Assembly: GCA_947599875.1 (NCBI GenBank)
Contig: CANQFV010000009.1
Location: forward strand, 1-64,000
Length of the DNA: 64,000 bases
Source of the DNA: an uncultured Oscillospiraceae bacterium
Lineage (GTDB): Bacteria; Bacillota; Clostridia; Oscillospirales; Oscillospiraceae
Reading direction: 5' to 3'
Position numbers and translations under genes: made by a program. The notes under the pieces are model-generated. The model made no database searches. It was not told the DNA's origin and worked only from the letters and a program-made list of their open reading frames with translations. This document shows positions 34,374 to 42,557 of this stretch, piece by piece (positions within the stretch are counted from its first letter, which is position 1; the number at the start of each line of letters is the position of its first letter).

Positions 34374-36503
34374 TTACTTGATCAGCGTGATCGTCCGGAT
34401 GACCGGGGCCAGGGTGTTGGCCACGGTGGACATGAGCTTAATGAAGATATCCAGCGCCACGCCCACCACGTCCTTGCGGGTATCGCCAATGGTGTCGCCG
34501 GTGACGGCGGCCTTGTGGGCGGAGGAGCCTTTTCCGTGTCCGGGGATGTTCTCCCCCTCGATGTACTTCTTGGCGTTGTCAAAGGCGCCGCCGGAGTTGC
34601 CCATGAAGATGGCCCTGGGGATGGCCACGATGGTGGCGCCCACCAGGATGCCGCCCACGAACTCCACCCCGAAGATGAGGCCGCCCACCACCGGGATGAG
34701 GAGGGCGATGACGGAGGGGATGACCATCTTGTGGATGGCCTCCTGGGCCGCCAGGCGGATCATCTTGTTGTAGTCGGGCTTGACGGTGCCCTCCAGGACG
34801 CCGGGGATGGACATCATCTTGTCCCCCTCGTCGGCCATAATCTTGGCGGAATCAATGGTGTTGTCGGTGAGCATAGCGGAGAAGTACTCCACCAGCGCGC
34901 CGCCCAAAATCCCCCCGGCCACGACAGTGAAGGAGGCGAAGTTCAGCACGGGTGTCAGCCCGGCGGAGTAGCTGCCCACATACGCCACGATCAGGGAGAC
35001 GGTGGCGAAGGCGGCGGAGCCGATGGCAAAGCCCTTGCCGATAGCGGCGGTGGTGTTTCCCACGGCGTCCAGCTTGTCGGTGATCTTCCGGACATCGGGA
35101 TCCAGATGGCAGGACTCCGCCAGACCGCCGGCGTTGTCGGCGATGGGGCCGAAGGCGTCAATGGAGACGGTGGCGCCCACAAAGGCCAGCATACCCAGGG
35201 CGGCGATGGCGATGCCGTATGTGCCGCAGAGGAAGCCGGACACCAAAAGGGCGATGGCGATGATGAGGACGGGCAGCAGGCAGGAGCGGGATCCGATGGC
35301 GTCACCCTTTGTGACGACAAAGGCCTCGCCCTCCTCGCAGATCTCCGCAAGCTCCCGGGTGGGCTTGTGGTCGGTGGAGGTGTAGTACTCCGTGATGACG
35401 CCGATGGCCACGCCGGAGACGATGCCCATAATGGCGGAGACCCAGGGGGAGGCCCAGCCGATCTTAAAGTCAGCGTAAAGCTCATCGGCGCTGAGCTTAC
35501 CGAAAATCAGGTAGCTGGCAATGCCGCCGAGAATCACGGTGATCCCGGCGGAGATCCATGTGGACATGTCCAGCTCGTGGGAGGGGTTATCCCCCATCTT
35601 CTTGAAATTGGCGATCCCCAGGCCCACCAGGCACCCGGCAAAGCCGCAGGCGGCCAGGATGATGGGGAACAGCACCGTGGCGTTGAAGATGCCGTCGCCC
35701 ATGCTGCTGTTGGCGGAGTAAAGCGTCACGGCGATCATAATGGAGGCGGACATGGTGGCGACAAAGCTCTCCAGCAGGTCGGAGCAATTGCCCGCGATAT
35801 CGTTTACGTTGTCCCCGATGAAGTCGGCGATGGTGTTGGGCACGCGGCTGTCGTCCTCGGGCAGGTCGTGACGGATCTTGCCCAGGATGTCGGAGCTGAT
35901 GTCCGCCGCCTTTGTGTAGTTTCCGCCGGCGACGCGGTTGAACATCGCCACGATGGAGCAGCCCAGAGAGTAGGTAGAAACCCGCATGACCGTGGGATTG
36001 CAGGTCATCCCCTGAAGCTTGATGAGTCCCTGGCTCACGGAGGTGTGATCCACGCCGCCCTGAAGGAGCATGATCAGGATGAGGCCCAGCATACCGAAGG
36101 CCTGAACCGCCAGACCGGAGACGGAGCCGCCGCACAGGGCGACCTTCACCGTCTCGCCGATGGACAGGCTCTCCCGCGCCCGGTTGGCCGTGCGCACGTT
36201 GGCGTAAGTGGCGCTCTTCATTCCCAGGACGCAGACCACGGAACTCATAGCGCCGCCCAGCAGAAAGCTGAGGCCCGATGTTTTCTCAATGAAAAGGGTG
36301 AAAAGAATGGCCACCACCGCCAGGACAAGGCAGATGCTCTTATACTCCGTGAGCATAAAGGTGTTGGCCCCTGACCGGATGATCCCGGCCATCTCCACCA
36401 TGTCCGCTGTCCCCTCCTTCATCTTCCGCACCTTCATGTAATTGAAAAGCACATAGGCGATGCCGAGGATCACGAGACACAGCACAAGATACCATGCCGT
36501 CAT
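34374..36503 (-). CDS. hppA: K+-dependent membrane-bound pyrophosphatase (H+ or Na+ pump)
   Basis: The 709-residue integral membrane protein has ~16 helices. It couples pyrophosphate hydrolysis to export of H+ or Na+. Motifs: GGNYTKAADISSDILGK and PEDDSRVPNTIADFIGDNVNDIAG (a diverged form of the catalytic DxxADxxGK and DNVGD loops), DNAGGLAE, and GNTTAAIGKG, where Ala after NTTA marks the K+-dependent class. Several catalytic-loop positions differ from the plant and Rhodospirillum enzymes, as in a clostridial subgroup. Na+ versus H+ specificity cannot be settled here. The start follows AGGAGG. Confidence 0.9.
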   Translation of the reverse strand: MTAWYLVLCLVILGIAYVLFNYMKVRKMKEGTADMVEMAGIIRSGANTFMLTEYKSICLVLAVVAILFTLFIEKTSGLSFLLGGAMSSVVCVLGMKSATYANVRTANRARESLSIGETVKVALCGGSVSGLAVQAFGMLGLILIMLLQGGVDHTSVSQGLIKLQGMTCNPTVMRVSTYSLGCSIVAMFNRVAGGNYTKAADISSDILGKIRHDLPEDDSRVPNTIADFIGDNVNDIAGNCSDLLESFVATMSASIMIAVTLYSANSSMGDGIFNATVLFPIILAACGFAGCLVGLGIANFKKMGDNPSHELDMSTWISAGITVILGGIASYLIFGKLSADELYADFKIGWASPWVSAIMGIVSGVAIGVITEYYTSTDHKPTRELAEICEEGEAFVVTKGDAIGSRSCLLPVLIIAIALLVSGFLCGTYGIAIAALGMLAFVGATVSIDAFGPIADNAGGLAESCHLDPDVRKITDKLDAVGNTTAAIGKGFAIGSAAFATVSLIVAYVGSYSAGLTPVLNFASFTVVAGGILGGALVEYFSAMLTDNTIDSAKIMADEGDKMMSIPGVLEGTVKPDYNKMIRLAAQEAIHKMVIPSVIALLIPVVGGLIFGVEFVGGILVGATIVAIPRAIFMGNSGGAFDNAKKYIEGENIPGHGKGSSAHKAAVTGDTIGDTRKDVVGVALDIFIKLMSTVANTLAPVIRTITLIK

Positions 36504-36543
36504 AAAAAGGTTACCTCCTGATGAAATTTTTATGAACAGGCCC

Positions 36544-36577
36544 ATTATAACGCCGGAGGGAAAATGTTGCAACATTT
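36544..36577 (-). promoter_or_regulatory. hppA promoter overlapped by a 16-bp palindrome
   Basis: On the minus strand TTGCAA (36567-36572) and TATAAT (36544-36549) are 17 bp apart. The perfect palindrome AAATGTTGCAACATTT (36562-36577) covers the -35, so a regulator bound there would compete with RNA polymerase. Confidence 0.7.
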
Positions 36578-38409: not shown

Positions 38410-39012
38410 ATGACTGTCACCTACCGGGTAAAAAACGGGATCTATGTAAATATGACAAACCGCTGTCCCTGCGCCTGCACCTTCTGCATCCGGCAAAACG
38501 GGGTCGGGGTCTACGGCTCGGACTCCCTGTGGCTTGAGCGGGAGCCGACGGTCAAGGAGATCTGCATGAGCATTGACCGGTGGAACCCGGATCAGTTCCG
38601 GGAGCTTGTCTTCTGTGGCTACGGGGAACCTACGGAGCGGCTGGACGACCTCCTTGAGGTGGCCAGGTATGTGAAAAGCCGGTATTCCCTCCCCATCCGC
38701 ATCAACACAAACGGTCTTTCCGACCTTATCAACGGGCGGGAGACGGCGCCGGAGCTTCGGGGCCTCATTGATACCGTCTCCGTGAGTCTGAACGCCACGG
38801 ACGCCCAGACGTATGAGCGGCTTTGCAGGCCGAAGTTCGGGGTACGCTCCTTCCAGGCCATGCTGGACTTCACAAAGAGCTGTGTCCCCTTTGTGCCGAA
38901 CGTGGTCATGACCGTCGTGGACGTGGTCACCACAAAGGAGGAGCAGGCCAGGGCCCGGCAAATCGCCGAAGAGCTGGGCGCTGTGCTTCGCGTCAGGGCC
39001 TACGAGGGATAA
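38410..39012 (+). CDS. TatD-associated radical SAM protein
   Basis: The 200-residue protein matches the short TatD-family-associated radical SAM group (TIGR04038): YVNMTNRCPCACTFCIRQNGVGVYGSDSLWLEREPT, with the CxxxCxxC cluster motif (CACTFC context), then FCGYGEPTERLD and RINTNGLSDLI. The gene is usually found beside or fused to a TatD-type nuclease, but no tatD gene is adjacent here. Substrate unknown. AAAGGAG precedes the ATG. Confidence 0.88.
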   Translation: MTVTYRVKNGIYVNMTNRCPCACTFCIRQNGVGVYGSDSLWLEREPTVKEICMSIDRWNPDQFRELVFCGYGEPTERLDDLLEVARYVKSRYSLPIRINTNGLSDLINGRETAPELRGLIDTVSVSLNATDAQTYERLCRPKFGVRSFQAMLDFTKSCVPFVPNVVMTVVDVVTTKEEQARARQIAEELGAVLRVRAYEG

Positions 39013-39131: not shown

Positions 39132-39407
39132 ATGGACATCAGGTACACGGCGCTTTACAGAGGCAGTCTTAACGGTTCACCCATTACATACTCCCTGGCG
39201 GAGACGACGGTTGATACCGGGGAGACCGCCGCAGAGAGGTTCGGCGTGGCTGTGGAGTATTCCGGGCAGCACGCCAGCTACCCCGACGTATTCTCTGACA
39301 GGAGGAAGGCGGAGGCCTTTATTGCTCTCCTGTACCGGGGCATGGTCACTCCCATTACCCTGGGCGACGCGGTATACGACAGGGTGTATATGGAAGAATT
39401 CGCATAG
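39132..39407 (+). CDS. Small DUF6514-type protein
   Basis: The 91-residue protein has a beta-rich first half and the C-terminal pattern FSDRRKAEAFIALLYRGMVTPITLGDAVYD, which fits the DUF6514 family of short clostridial proteins of unknown function. CGGAGG lies before the ATG. A strong terminator follows. Two TCGAA motifs 10 bp apart (39038-39054), similar to Spo0A-box cores, lie ~80 bp upstream; their relevance is uncertain. Confidence 0.65.
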   Translation: MDIRYTALYRGSLNGSPITYSLAETTVDTGETAAERFGVAVEYSGQHASYPDVFSDRRKAEAFIALLYRGMVTPITLGDAVYDRVYMEEFA

Positions 39408-39533: not shown

Positions 39534-41423
39534 TCAGTCCATACTGATGCCGGTGTTGAAGAAGGACGCGGCCTGGAGGAGGGAGATGAGCAGGGCCGAT
39601 ACCCACAGGGGCACAGCGCCGAAAACGGCGATCAGCGCGATCAGAACGCGGACGGCGGCGGCGATGAGGAAGGTCGCGGTGATCTTCCGCTTTACCTCCT
39701 TGGCGATGCGAACCATCCTGGAGAGCTTGGACAGCTCACCGGTGGCGATAAGCACATCCGGGAAGGTCCCGGTGGCCTCCGGCCCCACGCCCAGCGTGAC
39801 GCTGAGGTTGGCCGTCTCCAAAAGCTCCTGGTCGTGCCCCGCCTCGCTGACGAAGACGGCGCGCTCGCCCTTCAGCTGTGTCTCCTGGATGTACTGGAGT
39901 CTTGCCGCCTTGTCCTGGGGGCGGCAGTCGGAGTAGACTTCGGTGATGCCCAGCCGCCGGCAGATATTGGTGGCGGAGAGGGCGTTGTCGCCGGTCATAA
40001 GGGCCACATTGGGCACGCCCACGCTTTTCAGATCGTGAACCAGGGTCACGGCGTCGCTCCGGATGGTGTCGGCAAAGTCGATCCTGCCCACGCACGTCTT
40101 CCCCACGGAGACGAAAACGCACGTCTCCCCCGGGATATACATGTCCCCGCGCACGCCCAGCTTCTCCATGAAGTCGATATTCCCCACGGCGACGATAATG
40201 CCGCCGTCCATCTGGACGAGGCTGCCAAAGCCCGGCTGGACGGTGTGGTGGAAGATCCTGTCCCGTTCAGGCGTCAGGCCCGCGTATTCCCTCAGCGCCC
40301 GGTCAAGGGGGTGGTCGGAGTAGGCCCCCGCCTGGACAGCCAGGTACAGCAGCTGCTCCTCACTGATGCGGACGGGATCCACATGGATGACCTTGCAGTT
40401 CCCCTCGGTGACGGTGCCCGTCTTGTTGAAAAGCACGGAGGAGATCTCCGCGCAGGCGGACAGCGTCCCCGCGTCGGCAAACCAGATGCCGTTGGCAATG
40501 GCGGCCTCCGCACCGTTTAAGTAGGTCATCAGCGCCCCGGCCTGGCCGCAGTAGACGCACACGGAGAGGATCACCATCCCCCGTTCAAGCCATTTTAAGA
40601 AGTTAAAACCGTCAAACAGCGGCGGGATCAGGGCGATCACCAATGCCACACCCAAGGCCCCCAGCAGCGCCAGCCACTCAAAGCGGCTCAGCTCCACAAC
40701 GGGCCTCACCCGGCCGGAGTCAAGCTCCCGGAGGGTCACGTCCAGCCGCTCCCCCACCGGCCCCTCCCCATCGGTGCGCAGGGAGAGAAGGCGGCGCTTG
40801 ATAAATCCGGTCTCCCGGTTTTTCACGGAGTCAAAGGCGCTTTGGAAGATGTTATAGATCACCGCGGCGACGACGGCCTCCACCAGGTTGCCGCAGCAGC
40901 CATAAATCACCGTGGCGGCCAGCATCACCGCGGGGGTGGGTACCCCTCCCCTGTCCCGGAGACATTTGGCGGAGCCGATGACCATAGGGATGCACGCCAC
41001 GGCGAGGCCGCCGATCACAAAAATACTCCAGGCCGGATCGTCCAGATCCGGGAAGACGGCGGCGGCCACAAGGGCCAAAGCCAGGGCCATAGCGGCCACC
41101 AGCAGGATGAACCCGTACCCAAAGGCGCTTGCCGGCTTCTCCCGGCGCGGCGTGGGATCCGGCGCCTGTGGGACATCCTCCACGGCCTTCGTCACACTGG
41201 CGGTGATATCGGCGGCGATCTGGTCGGCGCGCTCCTCCTCAGGTCCCGGGGCCGGGGCGACTCTCTTAGGCTCCGGCTTCCGGGCCGGTTCCGGCGCGCC
41301 GGACTCCTGCGCCGGCGCGGGATCCTCCCCGCCCGTCTCCGGGGCGGCGCCGCCCCCATATTCCCGGAGGATATCGTCCAGATCGTAGCTCTCGATCTCC
41401 CCCGGGCCCTTTTTTTCTATCAT
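39534..41423 (-). CDS. P-type-ATPase-like membrane protein lacking the catalytic Asp
   Basis: The 629-residue protein has a ~100-residue disordered N-terminus rich in Pro, Glu and Ala, then membrane helices (~103-150, ~255-300), a P/N-domain region and two C-terminal helices, as in metal-transporting P-type ATPases. The invariant DKTGT is NKTGT at N333 (codon AAC at 40425-40427), so the phosphoenzyme cannot form. SDHPLD corresponds to the N-domain HP motif and MTGDN is kept. The GDGxNDxP hinge is replaced by SEAGHDQELL and no TGE actuator motif is seen. The reading frame is intact and uniform, suggesting a selected pseudoenzyme rather than decay. The role is unknown; binding or regulation at the membrane is a guess. 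Confidence 0.85.
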   Translation of the reverse strand: MIEKKGPGEIESYDLDDILREYGGGAAPETGGEDPAPAQESGAPEPARKPEPKRVAPAPGPEEERADQIAADITASVTKAVEDVPQAPDPTPRREKPASAFGYGFILLVAAMALALALVAAAVFPDLDDPAWSIFVIGGLAVACIPMVIGSAKCLRDRGGVPTPAVMLAATVIYGCCGNLVEAVVAAVIYNIFQSAFDSVKNRETGFIKRRLLSLRTDGEGPVGERLDVTLRELDSGRVRPVVELSRFEWLALLGALGVALVIALIPPLFDGFNFLKWLERGMVILSVCVYCGQAGALMTYLNGAEAAIANGIWFADAGTLSACAEISSVLFNKTGTVTEGNCKVIHVDPVRISEEQLLYLAVQAGAYSDHPLDRALREYAGLTPERDRIFHHTVQPGFGSLVQMDGGIIVAVGNIDFMEKLGVRGDMYIPGETCVFVSVGKTCVGRIDFADTIRSDAVTLVHDLKSVGVPNVALMTGDNALSATNICRRLGITEVYSDCRPQDKAARLQYIQETQLKGERAVFVSEAGHDQELLETANLSVTLGVGPEATGTFPDVLIATGELSKLSRMVRIAKEVKRKITATFLIAAAVRVLIALIAVFGAVPLWVSALLISLLQAASFFNTGISMD

Positions 41424-41450
41424 CTTATCACCTACCGGCAGATAACAGCT

Positions 41451-41479
41451 CGGGAAGCGCTCGAAGCAAGCGCTTCCCG
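41451..41479 (-). terminator. Hairpin after fba
   Basis: An 11-bp stem (CGGGAAGCGCT / AGCGCTTCCCG) with a 7-nt loop lies just downstream of the fba stop. No T-tract follows on the minus strand, so terminator function is uncertain. Confidence 0.5.
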
Positions 41480-41494
41480 ATTCGGTGTATTTTC

Positions 41495-42463
41495 TTATGC
41501 CTTGCCGGCGCAGCCAAGGACGTCGATGAGCTTGTGGGTCACGATGGCCTTGATGTTGGCGCGGGCGGGGGTGAGATACTGGCGGGGATCAAAATGATCC
41601 GGGTGATCGGCGAAGTACTTGCGGATGCTGCCGGTCATGGCCAGCCTCAGGTCGGAGTCGATGTTGATCTTGCAAACGGAGAGGGTGGCCGCCTTGCGCA
41701 GCTGCTCCTCGGGGATACCTACGGCGTCGGGCATCTTGCCGCCGTTTTCGTTGATCATCTTCACGAAATCCTGAGGTACGCTGGAGGAGCCGTGAAGGAC
41801 GATGGGGAAGCCGGGCAGACGCCGGGAGACCTCCTCCAGGATGTCAAAGCGCAGCGGGGGCGGCACAAGGATGCCCTGCTCGTTGCGGGTACACTGGGCG
41901 GCGGTGAATTTGTAAGCGCCGTGGCTCGTGCCGATGGCGATGGCCAGGGAGTCACACCCGGTCTTCTGGACGAACTCCTCCACCTCCTCGGGGCGGGTAT
42001 AACTGGAGTCCTCGGCAGAGACGTTGACCTCGTCCTCCACGCCGGCCAGGGAGCCAAGCTCCGCCTCCACCACAACGCCGTGGTCGTGGGCGTACTCCAC
42101 CACCTTGCGGGTGATGGCGATATTCTCCTCAAAGGGCTTGGAGCTGGCGTCGATCATCACGGAGGTGAAGCCGCCGTCGATGCAGGACTTGCATGTCTCA
42201 AAATCCGGGCCATGATCCAGGTGCAGGGCGATGGGGATATCCGGGCACTCGATAACGGCGGCCTCCACCAGCTTCACAAGATAGGTGTGGTTGGCGTAGG
42301 CGCGGGCGCCCTTACTGACCTGAAGGATCAGCGGGGCGTGCTGTTCCCGGGCGGCCTCGGTGATCCCCTGGACGATCTCCATATTGTTCACGTTGAAAGC
42401 GCCCACGGCGTAACCGCCGTCATAGGCTTTTTTGAACATCTCGGTCGTAGTGACTAAAGGCAT
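41495..42463 (-). CDS. fba: Class II fructose-bisphosphate aldolase
   Basis: The 322-residue zinc-dependent aldolase cleaves fructose-1,6-bisphosphate in glycolysis. Signatures: GAFNVNNMEIVQGI, ALHLDHGPDFETC (zinc ligand His and catalytic Asp), SVMIDASSKPFEENI, VEAELGSLAGVEDEV, AIAIGTSHGAYKF and PIVLHGSSSVP. It is monocistronic with its own promoter at 42530-42557. AAGGAG precedes the ATG. Confidence 0.93.
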   Translation of the reverse strand: MPLVTTTEMFKKAYDGGYAVGAFNVNNMEIVQGITEAAREQHAPLILQVSKGARAYANHTYLVKLVEAAVIECPDIPIALHLDHGPDFETCKSCIDGGFTSVMIDASSKPFEENIAITRKVVEYAHDHGVVVEAELGSLAGVEDEVNVSAEDSSYTRPEEVEEFVQKTGCDSLAIAIGTSHGAYKFTAAQCTRNEQGILVPPPLRFDILEEVSRRLPGFPIVLHGSSSVPQDFVKMINENGGKMPDAVGIPEEQLRKAATLSVCKINIDSDLRLAMTGSIRKYFADHPDHFDPRQYLTPARANIKAIVTHKLIDVLGCAGKA

Positions 42464-42529: not shown

Positions 42530-42557
42530 ATTATACCATACTCCCCGCCCAATTCAA
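42530..42557 (-). promoter_or_regulatory. Promoter of fba
   Basis: On the minus strand TTGAAT (42552-42557) and TATAAT (42530-42535) are 16 bp apart, 66 bp before the ATG. Confidence 0.65.

Follow-up and report, generated by a model that had tools for sequence, protein, structure and literature searches.

A P1B-type ATPase family that has apparently lost its pump chemistry and kept its nucleotide pocket, encoded next to the fructose-bisphosphate aldolase gene in a genus of Oscillospiraceae

Introduction

Why would a bacterium keep, in an intact reading frame, a P-type ATPase whose catalytic cycle appears to be broken? This question arises from a stretch of 64,000 nucleotides (the window; positions 1 to 64,000 of contig CANQFV010000009.1, assembly GCA_947599875.1) from an uncultured Oscillospiraceae bacterium. 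A first-pass annotation had described one of its genes as a P-type ATPase pseudoenzyme with Asn in place of the catalytic Asp, and had proposed that it belonged to a family that lost transport and kept the fold. Dead enzymes, pseudokinases among them, are well known. We searched the open-licence literature and met no account of a bacterial family of dead P-type ATPases; neither of the two families reported here, family A (that of the window gene) and family B (a far more diverged homologue), was described in it.

Results

Motifs and predicted structure of the window gene

The pseudo-P1B-ATPase gene occupies 39534-41423, has an ATG start and encodes 629 aa; its frame is intact, as had been annotated, and it lies on the minus strand, as do all the features of the gene given below. 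The best NCBIfam match was ATPase-IB_hvy, the heavy-metal P1B model (E 2.8e-56), with 191.6 bits, i.e. below the cut-off of 346.25; in Pfam the HAD hydrolase match alone was above cut-off, and the nearest solved relatives by sequence were ZntA (4umv, E 1.6e-28) and CopA-type pumps. The exchange of the phosphorylated Asp was confirmed: NKTGT (residues 333-337, 40413-40427) stands in place of DKTGT, and because Asn333 (AAC, 40425-40427) replaces Asp, no aspartyl-phosphate would be formed. At the position of GDGxND, correctly reported as missing, the protein reads SEAGHD (526-531, 39831-39848), and the catalytic Mg2+ could not be placed because the Mg-binding Asp is gone. The reported absence of TGE proved to be part of a larger loss, as M2 and M3 are 63 aa apart in the window protein, against 145 aa in a true pump that the same genome encodes; the entire actuator (A) domain is deleted, at approximately residues 200-245 (40689-40826), and for this reason neither dephosphorylation nor conformational coupling would be expected. 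In addition, CVY (40551-40559) replaces the metal-binding motif CPC. With Asp, Mg site, A domain and CPC all lost, the window protein is almost certainly not a pump: judged by its motifs, it would be a dead ATPase that carries out no transport.

The MTGDN and HP motifs were retained, as the annotation had said, and they belong to a larger set: His371-Pro372 of the N-domain HP motif (40308-40313), GFG of the GxG nucleotide-pocket motif (398-400, 40224-40232), Gly414-Asn415 of the GN nucleotide-pocket motif (40179-40184), TGD of HAD motif II (477-479, 39987-39995) and the stretch from Pro502 to Lys505, which carries the HAD motif III lysine (39909-39920). In P-type ATPase structures the kept residues hold the nucleotide, and the lost ones make and remove the phosphoenzyme, place Mg2+ and carry the metal. 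Intact HAD motifs II and III would suit an enzyme that works by other chemistry, such as a HAD-fold phosphohydrolase or a residual ATPase without a phosphoenzyme, but with the nucleophile of HAD motif I and the metal Asp of GDGxND both lost, the known HAD chemistry is removed, and we consider such an enzyme highly improbable.

Structure prediction, one of the checks that the annotation had proposed, gave a confident P1B fold. The AlphaFold2 model (25-sequence alignment) had a mean pLDDT of 82, with the core mostly >90, and contained the eight-helix membrane core and the P and N domains. The top Foldseek matches were P1B ATPases (ZntA/CopA), and the P and N domains matched those of CopA bound to AMPPCP-Mg or ADP-Mg with a TM score of 0.84-0.85, normalised to the CopA domain. 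The disordered acidic tail of the annotation was also found, at the N terminus (residues 1-99, 41127-41423; pLDDT mostly <50, namely in residues 1-14, 23-43 and 45-99). It is interrupted by an isolated predicted helix, residues 15-22, within the short linear motif YDLDDILREYG (13-23, 41355-41387).

Distribution of family A and selection on its members

Family A was present in 29 of the 34 genomes of the source genus, the genome records being mostly metagenome assemblies, and the same genes were recovered from a separate, public collection that spans 84,980 species, under record names such as 'uncultured Oscillospiraceae bacterium' (sources: rabbit, rumen, goat gut). Genome-wide counts rest on searches, and site counts were taken over an alignment of 29 members, one per genome. 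The search match of one genus member, L029 (G003:C111), contains an in-frame TGA, which represents an assembly error or a broken copy.

The phospho-acceptor site is occupied by Asn in 24 members, by Ser in 4 and by Asp in 1 (n = 29), so that the conservation of Asn among homologues, a further check proposed by the annotation, holds as Asn or Ser in 28/29. A sequencing or assembly error at the Asn codon was ruled out, since the change recurs across many genomes. The sole Asp member (L028) reads DKRGT and has neither the A domain nor GDGxND. The Mg-binding Asp of GDGxND, a feature of functional pumps, was found in 0/29; the actuator domain with TGE(S) is deleted in all 29 (M2-M3 of 46-68 aa vs 145); CPC is nearly gone (about 1/29, the member L031) and the C-terminal metal-ligand Asp is kept in 5/29. 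These last remnants, together with the eight membrane helices kept in the model, would fit a metal channel, passive or residual, that has become independent of ATP turnover; however, the clade of the window gene has neither CPC nor the Asp ligand, and the membrane part showed no newly conserved set of polar residues, which makes a channel very unlikely.

The pocket presented the opposite picture. His of HP, GxG, GN and TGD were each kept in 29/29, as was Gly of KTGT; Lys of PxxK was kept in 28/28 aligned members and Pro of HP in 26/29, and the Glu five residues ahead of the HP His, kept in 7/29, was lost in most. Moreover, dN/dS was low in the core, as the annotation had thought it might be (0.03-0.24; pairwise Nei-Gojobori, twelve pairs, of which some were near synonymous saturation, so that single values are rough), and in the tail, where measurable, it was 0.07-0.59, above the core in nearly all pairs. 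Ordinary decay toward a pseudogene could explain that several catalytic motifs are broken and that the gene diverges fast compared with its neighbour fba, but the frames are open in nearly all members over a wide divergence, core dN/dS is low, the pocket residues stand at 29/29 and gene order is fixed; decay or frameshift was ruled out on these frames and dN/dS values, and the pseudogene reading, already contradicted, is hardly credible. These alignments give good support to the view that selection maintains family A as a protein whose nucleotide pocket is intact.

The annotation had also asked for a true ATPase in the same cell, and indeed the same genome has pumps of the Zn and Cu types, in which DKTGT and GDGIND are present. 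Other P-type ATPases were likewise found in nearly every searched genome carrying family A, and this, with the descent from the P1B group, might point to a protein that acts on a true P1B pump as dominant partner or regulator, e.g. in a hetero-oligomer with a ZntA-like pump. Against this, the gene is linked to fba and shows no linkage to a pump or metal regulator, and relatives without family A also have true pumps, so we regard a pump regulator as unlikely.

With regard to other roles, the window protein matched no PADLOC model of anti-phage defence. Plasmid carriage was rejected, as no plasmid record covered 80% of the query, all were <60% identical and the annotated ones among those listed were true pumps.

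The fba neighbourhood

In the window, the class II fructose-bisphosphate aldolase gene (fba, 41495-42463, minus strand) lies upstream of the pseudo-ATPase gene with a gap of 71 nt, which contains a 14-bp hairpin (41450-41480, minus strand). A promoter-like TTGAAT-16-TATAAT with an extended TG, a consensus match only, is located upstream of fba (42530-42557, minus strand), and no promoter-like site was found in the gap between the two genes. fba is directly upstream of family A, on the same strand, in all loci that a contig end does not cut short, and the linkage extends to L084 (in genome G036), L087 and L090, whose proteins are about 25% identical; most other Oscillospiraceae genera that we read have a different gene after fba. 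The five genus genomes without family A were also without an fba match and are 76-87% complete, so that the joint loss is either a true absence or a matter of missing contigs. fba is 94-99% identical across loci whose family A proteins share only 42-60% identity, which indicates that family A is conserved in function yet divergent.

Comparable strong hairpins of differing sequence, often followed by a T-rich stretch, occur in nearly all genus loci read, including the gaps of L053-L080, and no comparable hairpin was seen in the gaps of L084, L087 and L090. The hairpin could act as an attenuator, a leaky terminator or a processing site, and we infer that fba and the pseudo-ATPase gene would be co-transcribed with partial termination.

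On the other side of the locus, the gene for a radical-SAM-like protein (CPCACTFC; 38410-39012, plus strand), with a small uncharacterised gene (39132-39407) as its neighbour, is convergent with the pseudo-ATPase gene, and several genomes of the genus have similar genes close to the locus. Further away, a 619-aa open frame (34515-36374, plus strand) lies antisense to a 733-aa membrane protein (34374-36575, minus strand), which we take to resemble proton-pumping pyrophosphatases; the 619-aa frame is probably an artefact of high third-position GC.

Evolution of the inactivation

Two trees were built after removal of the motif columns. Window-type sequences fell among P1B sequences. Tree 1 needed six changes from Asp to Asn or Ser, at least 3 of which were forced by well-supported branches, and a single origin of Asn was rejected on the latter ground. 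Tree 2 placed the fba-linked genes and one gene each of genomes G034 and G035 on one side of a branch with support of 83/87, which is not decisive. The G034 gene (L217), about 4.5 kb downstream of fba, has DKNGT and SSE for TGD and has lost the HP His and GDGxND; the G035 gene (L136), with no fba linkage, has DKTGS, SED for TGD and GNGIGN for GDGxND. By their motifs, these two genes are half-way stages of inactivation, and as they keep Asp with other motifs broken, the other catalytic losses need not await the loss of Asp. The first-pass annotation had held that close relatives with Asp would speak against its reading. Such relatives do exist (L028 and the G034 and G035 genes), but each is inactivated elsewhere, so the objection applies in letter only.

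In the fba-linked sister group L084/L087/L090, HP is lost, and GxG and GN are also lost in some. Asn was further observed in the cultured Agathobaculum butyriciproducens DSM 100391 (L081; NKTGT, actuator domain present, GDGVSD), in a rumen Clostridia group (NKTGT, GDGVKD, TGG for TGD) and in a Methanobacteriaceae archaeon. Besides L081, the P1B ATPases with NKTGT or NKSGT comprise L086, L088, L089, L092, L099 and L105 from rumen and gut Clostridia, L103, L098 from Methanobacteriaceae, and L108; several still have the actuator domain. All these cases apparently stem from independent changes. A strict FNK(T/S/A)G pattern gave few matches in 394 genomes of the order, and therefore Asn-bearing pumps are rare outside these lineages.

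Family B and the shared N-terminal motif

Family B was first met in genome G091, where the neighbour of fba, on the opposite strand, encodes a far more degenerate P-type-ATPase-like protein that had no match in Pfam. One member lies at G000:C4:96776-99271 (L162 8768-11272) on the minus strand. Family B was found in 76/81 Oscillospiraceae genomes and in 53/53 good ones; a profile search of Oscillospirales found it in 105/117 genomes and 90/97 good ones, although true pumps may be among the weakest of these matches. Family B is possibly a core gene of Oscillospirales, as far as these searches indicate. rlmB adjoins it in nearly all of 20 loci in one set and in 20/20 loci of other families. Its members have TDxDLFPPG at the DKTGT position and RDFN at TGDN, and HP and GDGxND are gone.

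The A and B profiles aligned with a probability of 98.8 (hhalign, E 8e-17), the family B profile matched CopA chains with E 3.5e-11, and the best folds for the family B AlphaFold2 model (mean pLDDT 73) were P1B pumps. The two families are homologous; compared with A, family B is far more diverged, order-wide, and linked to rlmB, not to fba. Both have a long acidic tail with (L/V)(D/E)xILxE near its start, found in 16/25 family A tails and 33/40 family B tails (20/20 in Oscillospiraceae and 13/20 elsewhere). Shuffled tails gave a mean of 0.12-0.16 sequences with the motif, a figure that overstates the case because family members are not independent; the presence of the motif in both families carries more weight. 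In the source genome, the N-terminal motif was found solely in the window gene and the family B gene. We found no genome-wide set of proteins with it at the N terminus, and its other matches sit inside unrelated proteins. Its absence in 9/25 family A members means that it is not needed everywhere.

Discussion

Motif counts, selection and the P1B model all support the proposal that this family lost transport yet kept the fold. We favour, with a probability of roughly 55%, the reading in which the window gene, whose product is a dead P1B ATPase, has been kept to provide a nucleotide-binding sensor or scaffold at the membrane, with a tie to glycolysis. Nucleotide sensing by family A, and the ATP binding that it would require, are what we infer from residue conservation. 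Under the favoured reading, the N and P domains would close on ATP or ADP without turnover; P-type ATPase mutants that lack the Asp carboxylate tend to bind ATP more tightly. The output would then be this closure of N on P, relayed to partners that the disordered tail recruits, with the short helical motif that recurs in family B as the presumed recruiter. Read-through from fba would set expression and thus might tie the dose to glycolytic flux or to the ATP state of the cell.

A purely structural scaffold or membrane anchor, in which the pocket residues are kept just to hold the P and N domains together, would account for family B, which has the same architecture and tail motif, lacks HP and GDGxND and is still conserved order-wide, and for L084/L087/L090, which retain the gene without HP. 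Since the latter are fba-linked yet HP-less, fba linkage needs no intact pocket, and the adjacency may be simple operon inheritance. Within the genus, however, the pocket His, GxG and GN are invariant while other once-invariant catalytic positions vary freely, and we hold a purely structural role to be rather doubtful, and prefer the nucleotide-binding protein.

Family A shares with the P1B ATPases ZntA/CadA and CopA (TIGR01525, TIGR01512, TIGR01511) the fold, the eight-helix topology, the P and N domains and the TGD, PxxK, HP, GxG and GN motifs. Unlike them, it lacks the phospho-acceptor Asp (in nearly all members), GDGxND and the actuator domain, and in most members CPC; it also has a long N-terminal tail, and its scores do not reach the family cut-offs. 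Automated annotation would probably label such a protein either a metal-transporting ATPase or hypothetical. Human TMEM94 (ERMA) offers a precedent for nucleotide binding by a P-type fold that lacks ATPase activity: by its published description it has a P-type-like fold without TGES, binds AMPPCP at micromolar affinity and has no ATPase activity (PMC12134183), although it has also been argued to be a Mg2+ ATPase (PMC13322241). Unlike family A, TMEM94 is eukaryotic and keeps an A-like domain and an Asp (D417). Similarly, the guanylyl cyclase beta of Plasmodium has a degenerate P4-ATPase domain that lost most signature residues and is kept in a signalling protein (PMC6592433); that module differs from family A in being fused to a cyclase and of eukaryotic P4 type.

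In a wider and still tentative picture, which we consider possible at best, pseudo-P-type-ATPases would form a class of signalling or scaffold proteins in the membranes of Oscillospirales, the rlmB-linked one an order-wide core and the fba-linked one arisen in one family, both recruiting a common partner through the (L/V)(D/E)xILxE helix, and the fba-linked one reporting the ATP/ADP state to glycolysis. Family B, for which we found no assigned function, would be part of the core genome of a dominant gut lineage. In family A, a pump has been dismantled selectively across many species: the sites for phosphorylation, Mg2+, actuator and metal are gone and the pocket is near-invariant, a natural experiment on the separable parts of the Post-Albers machine. 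If ATP is bound and left unused, the protein could be a direct membrane sensor of ATP/ADP beside a central glycolytic enzyme.
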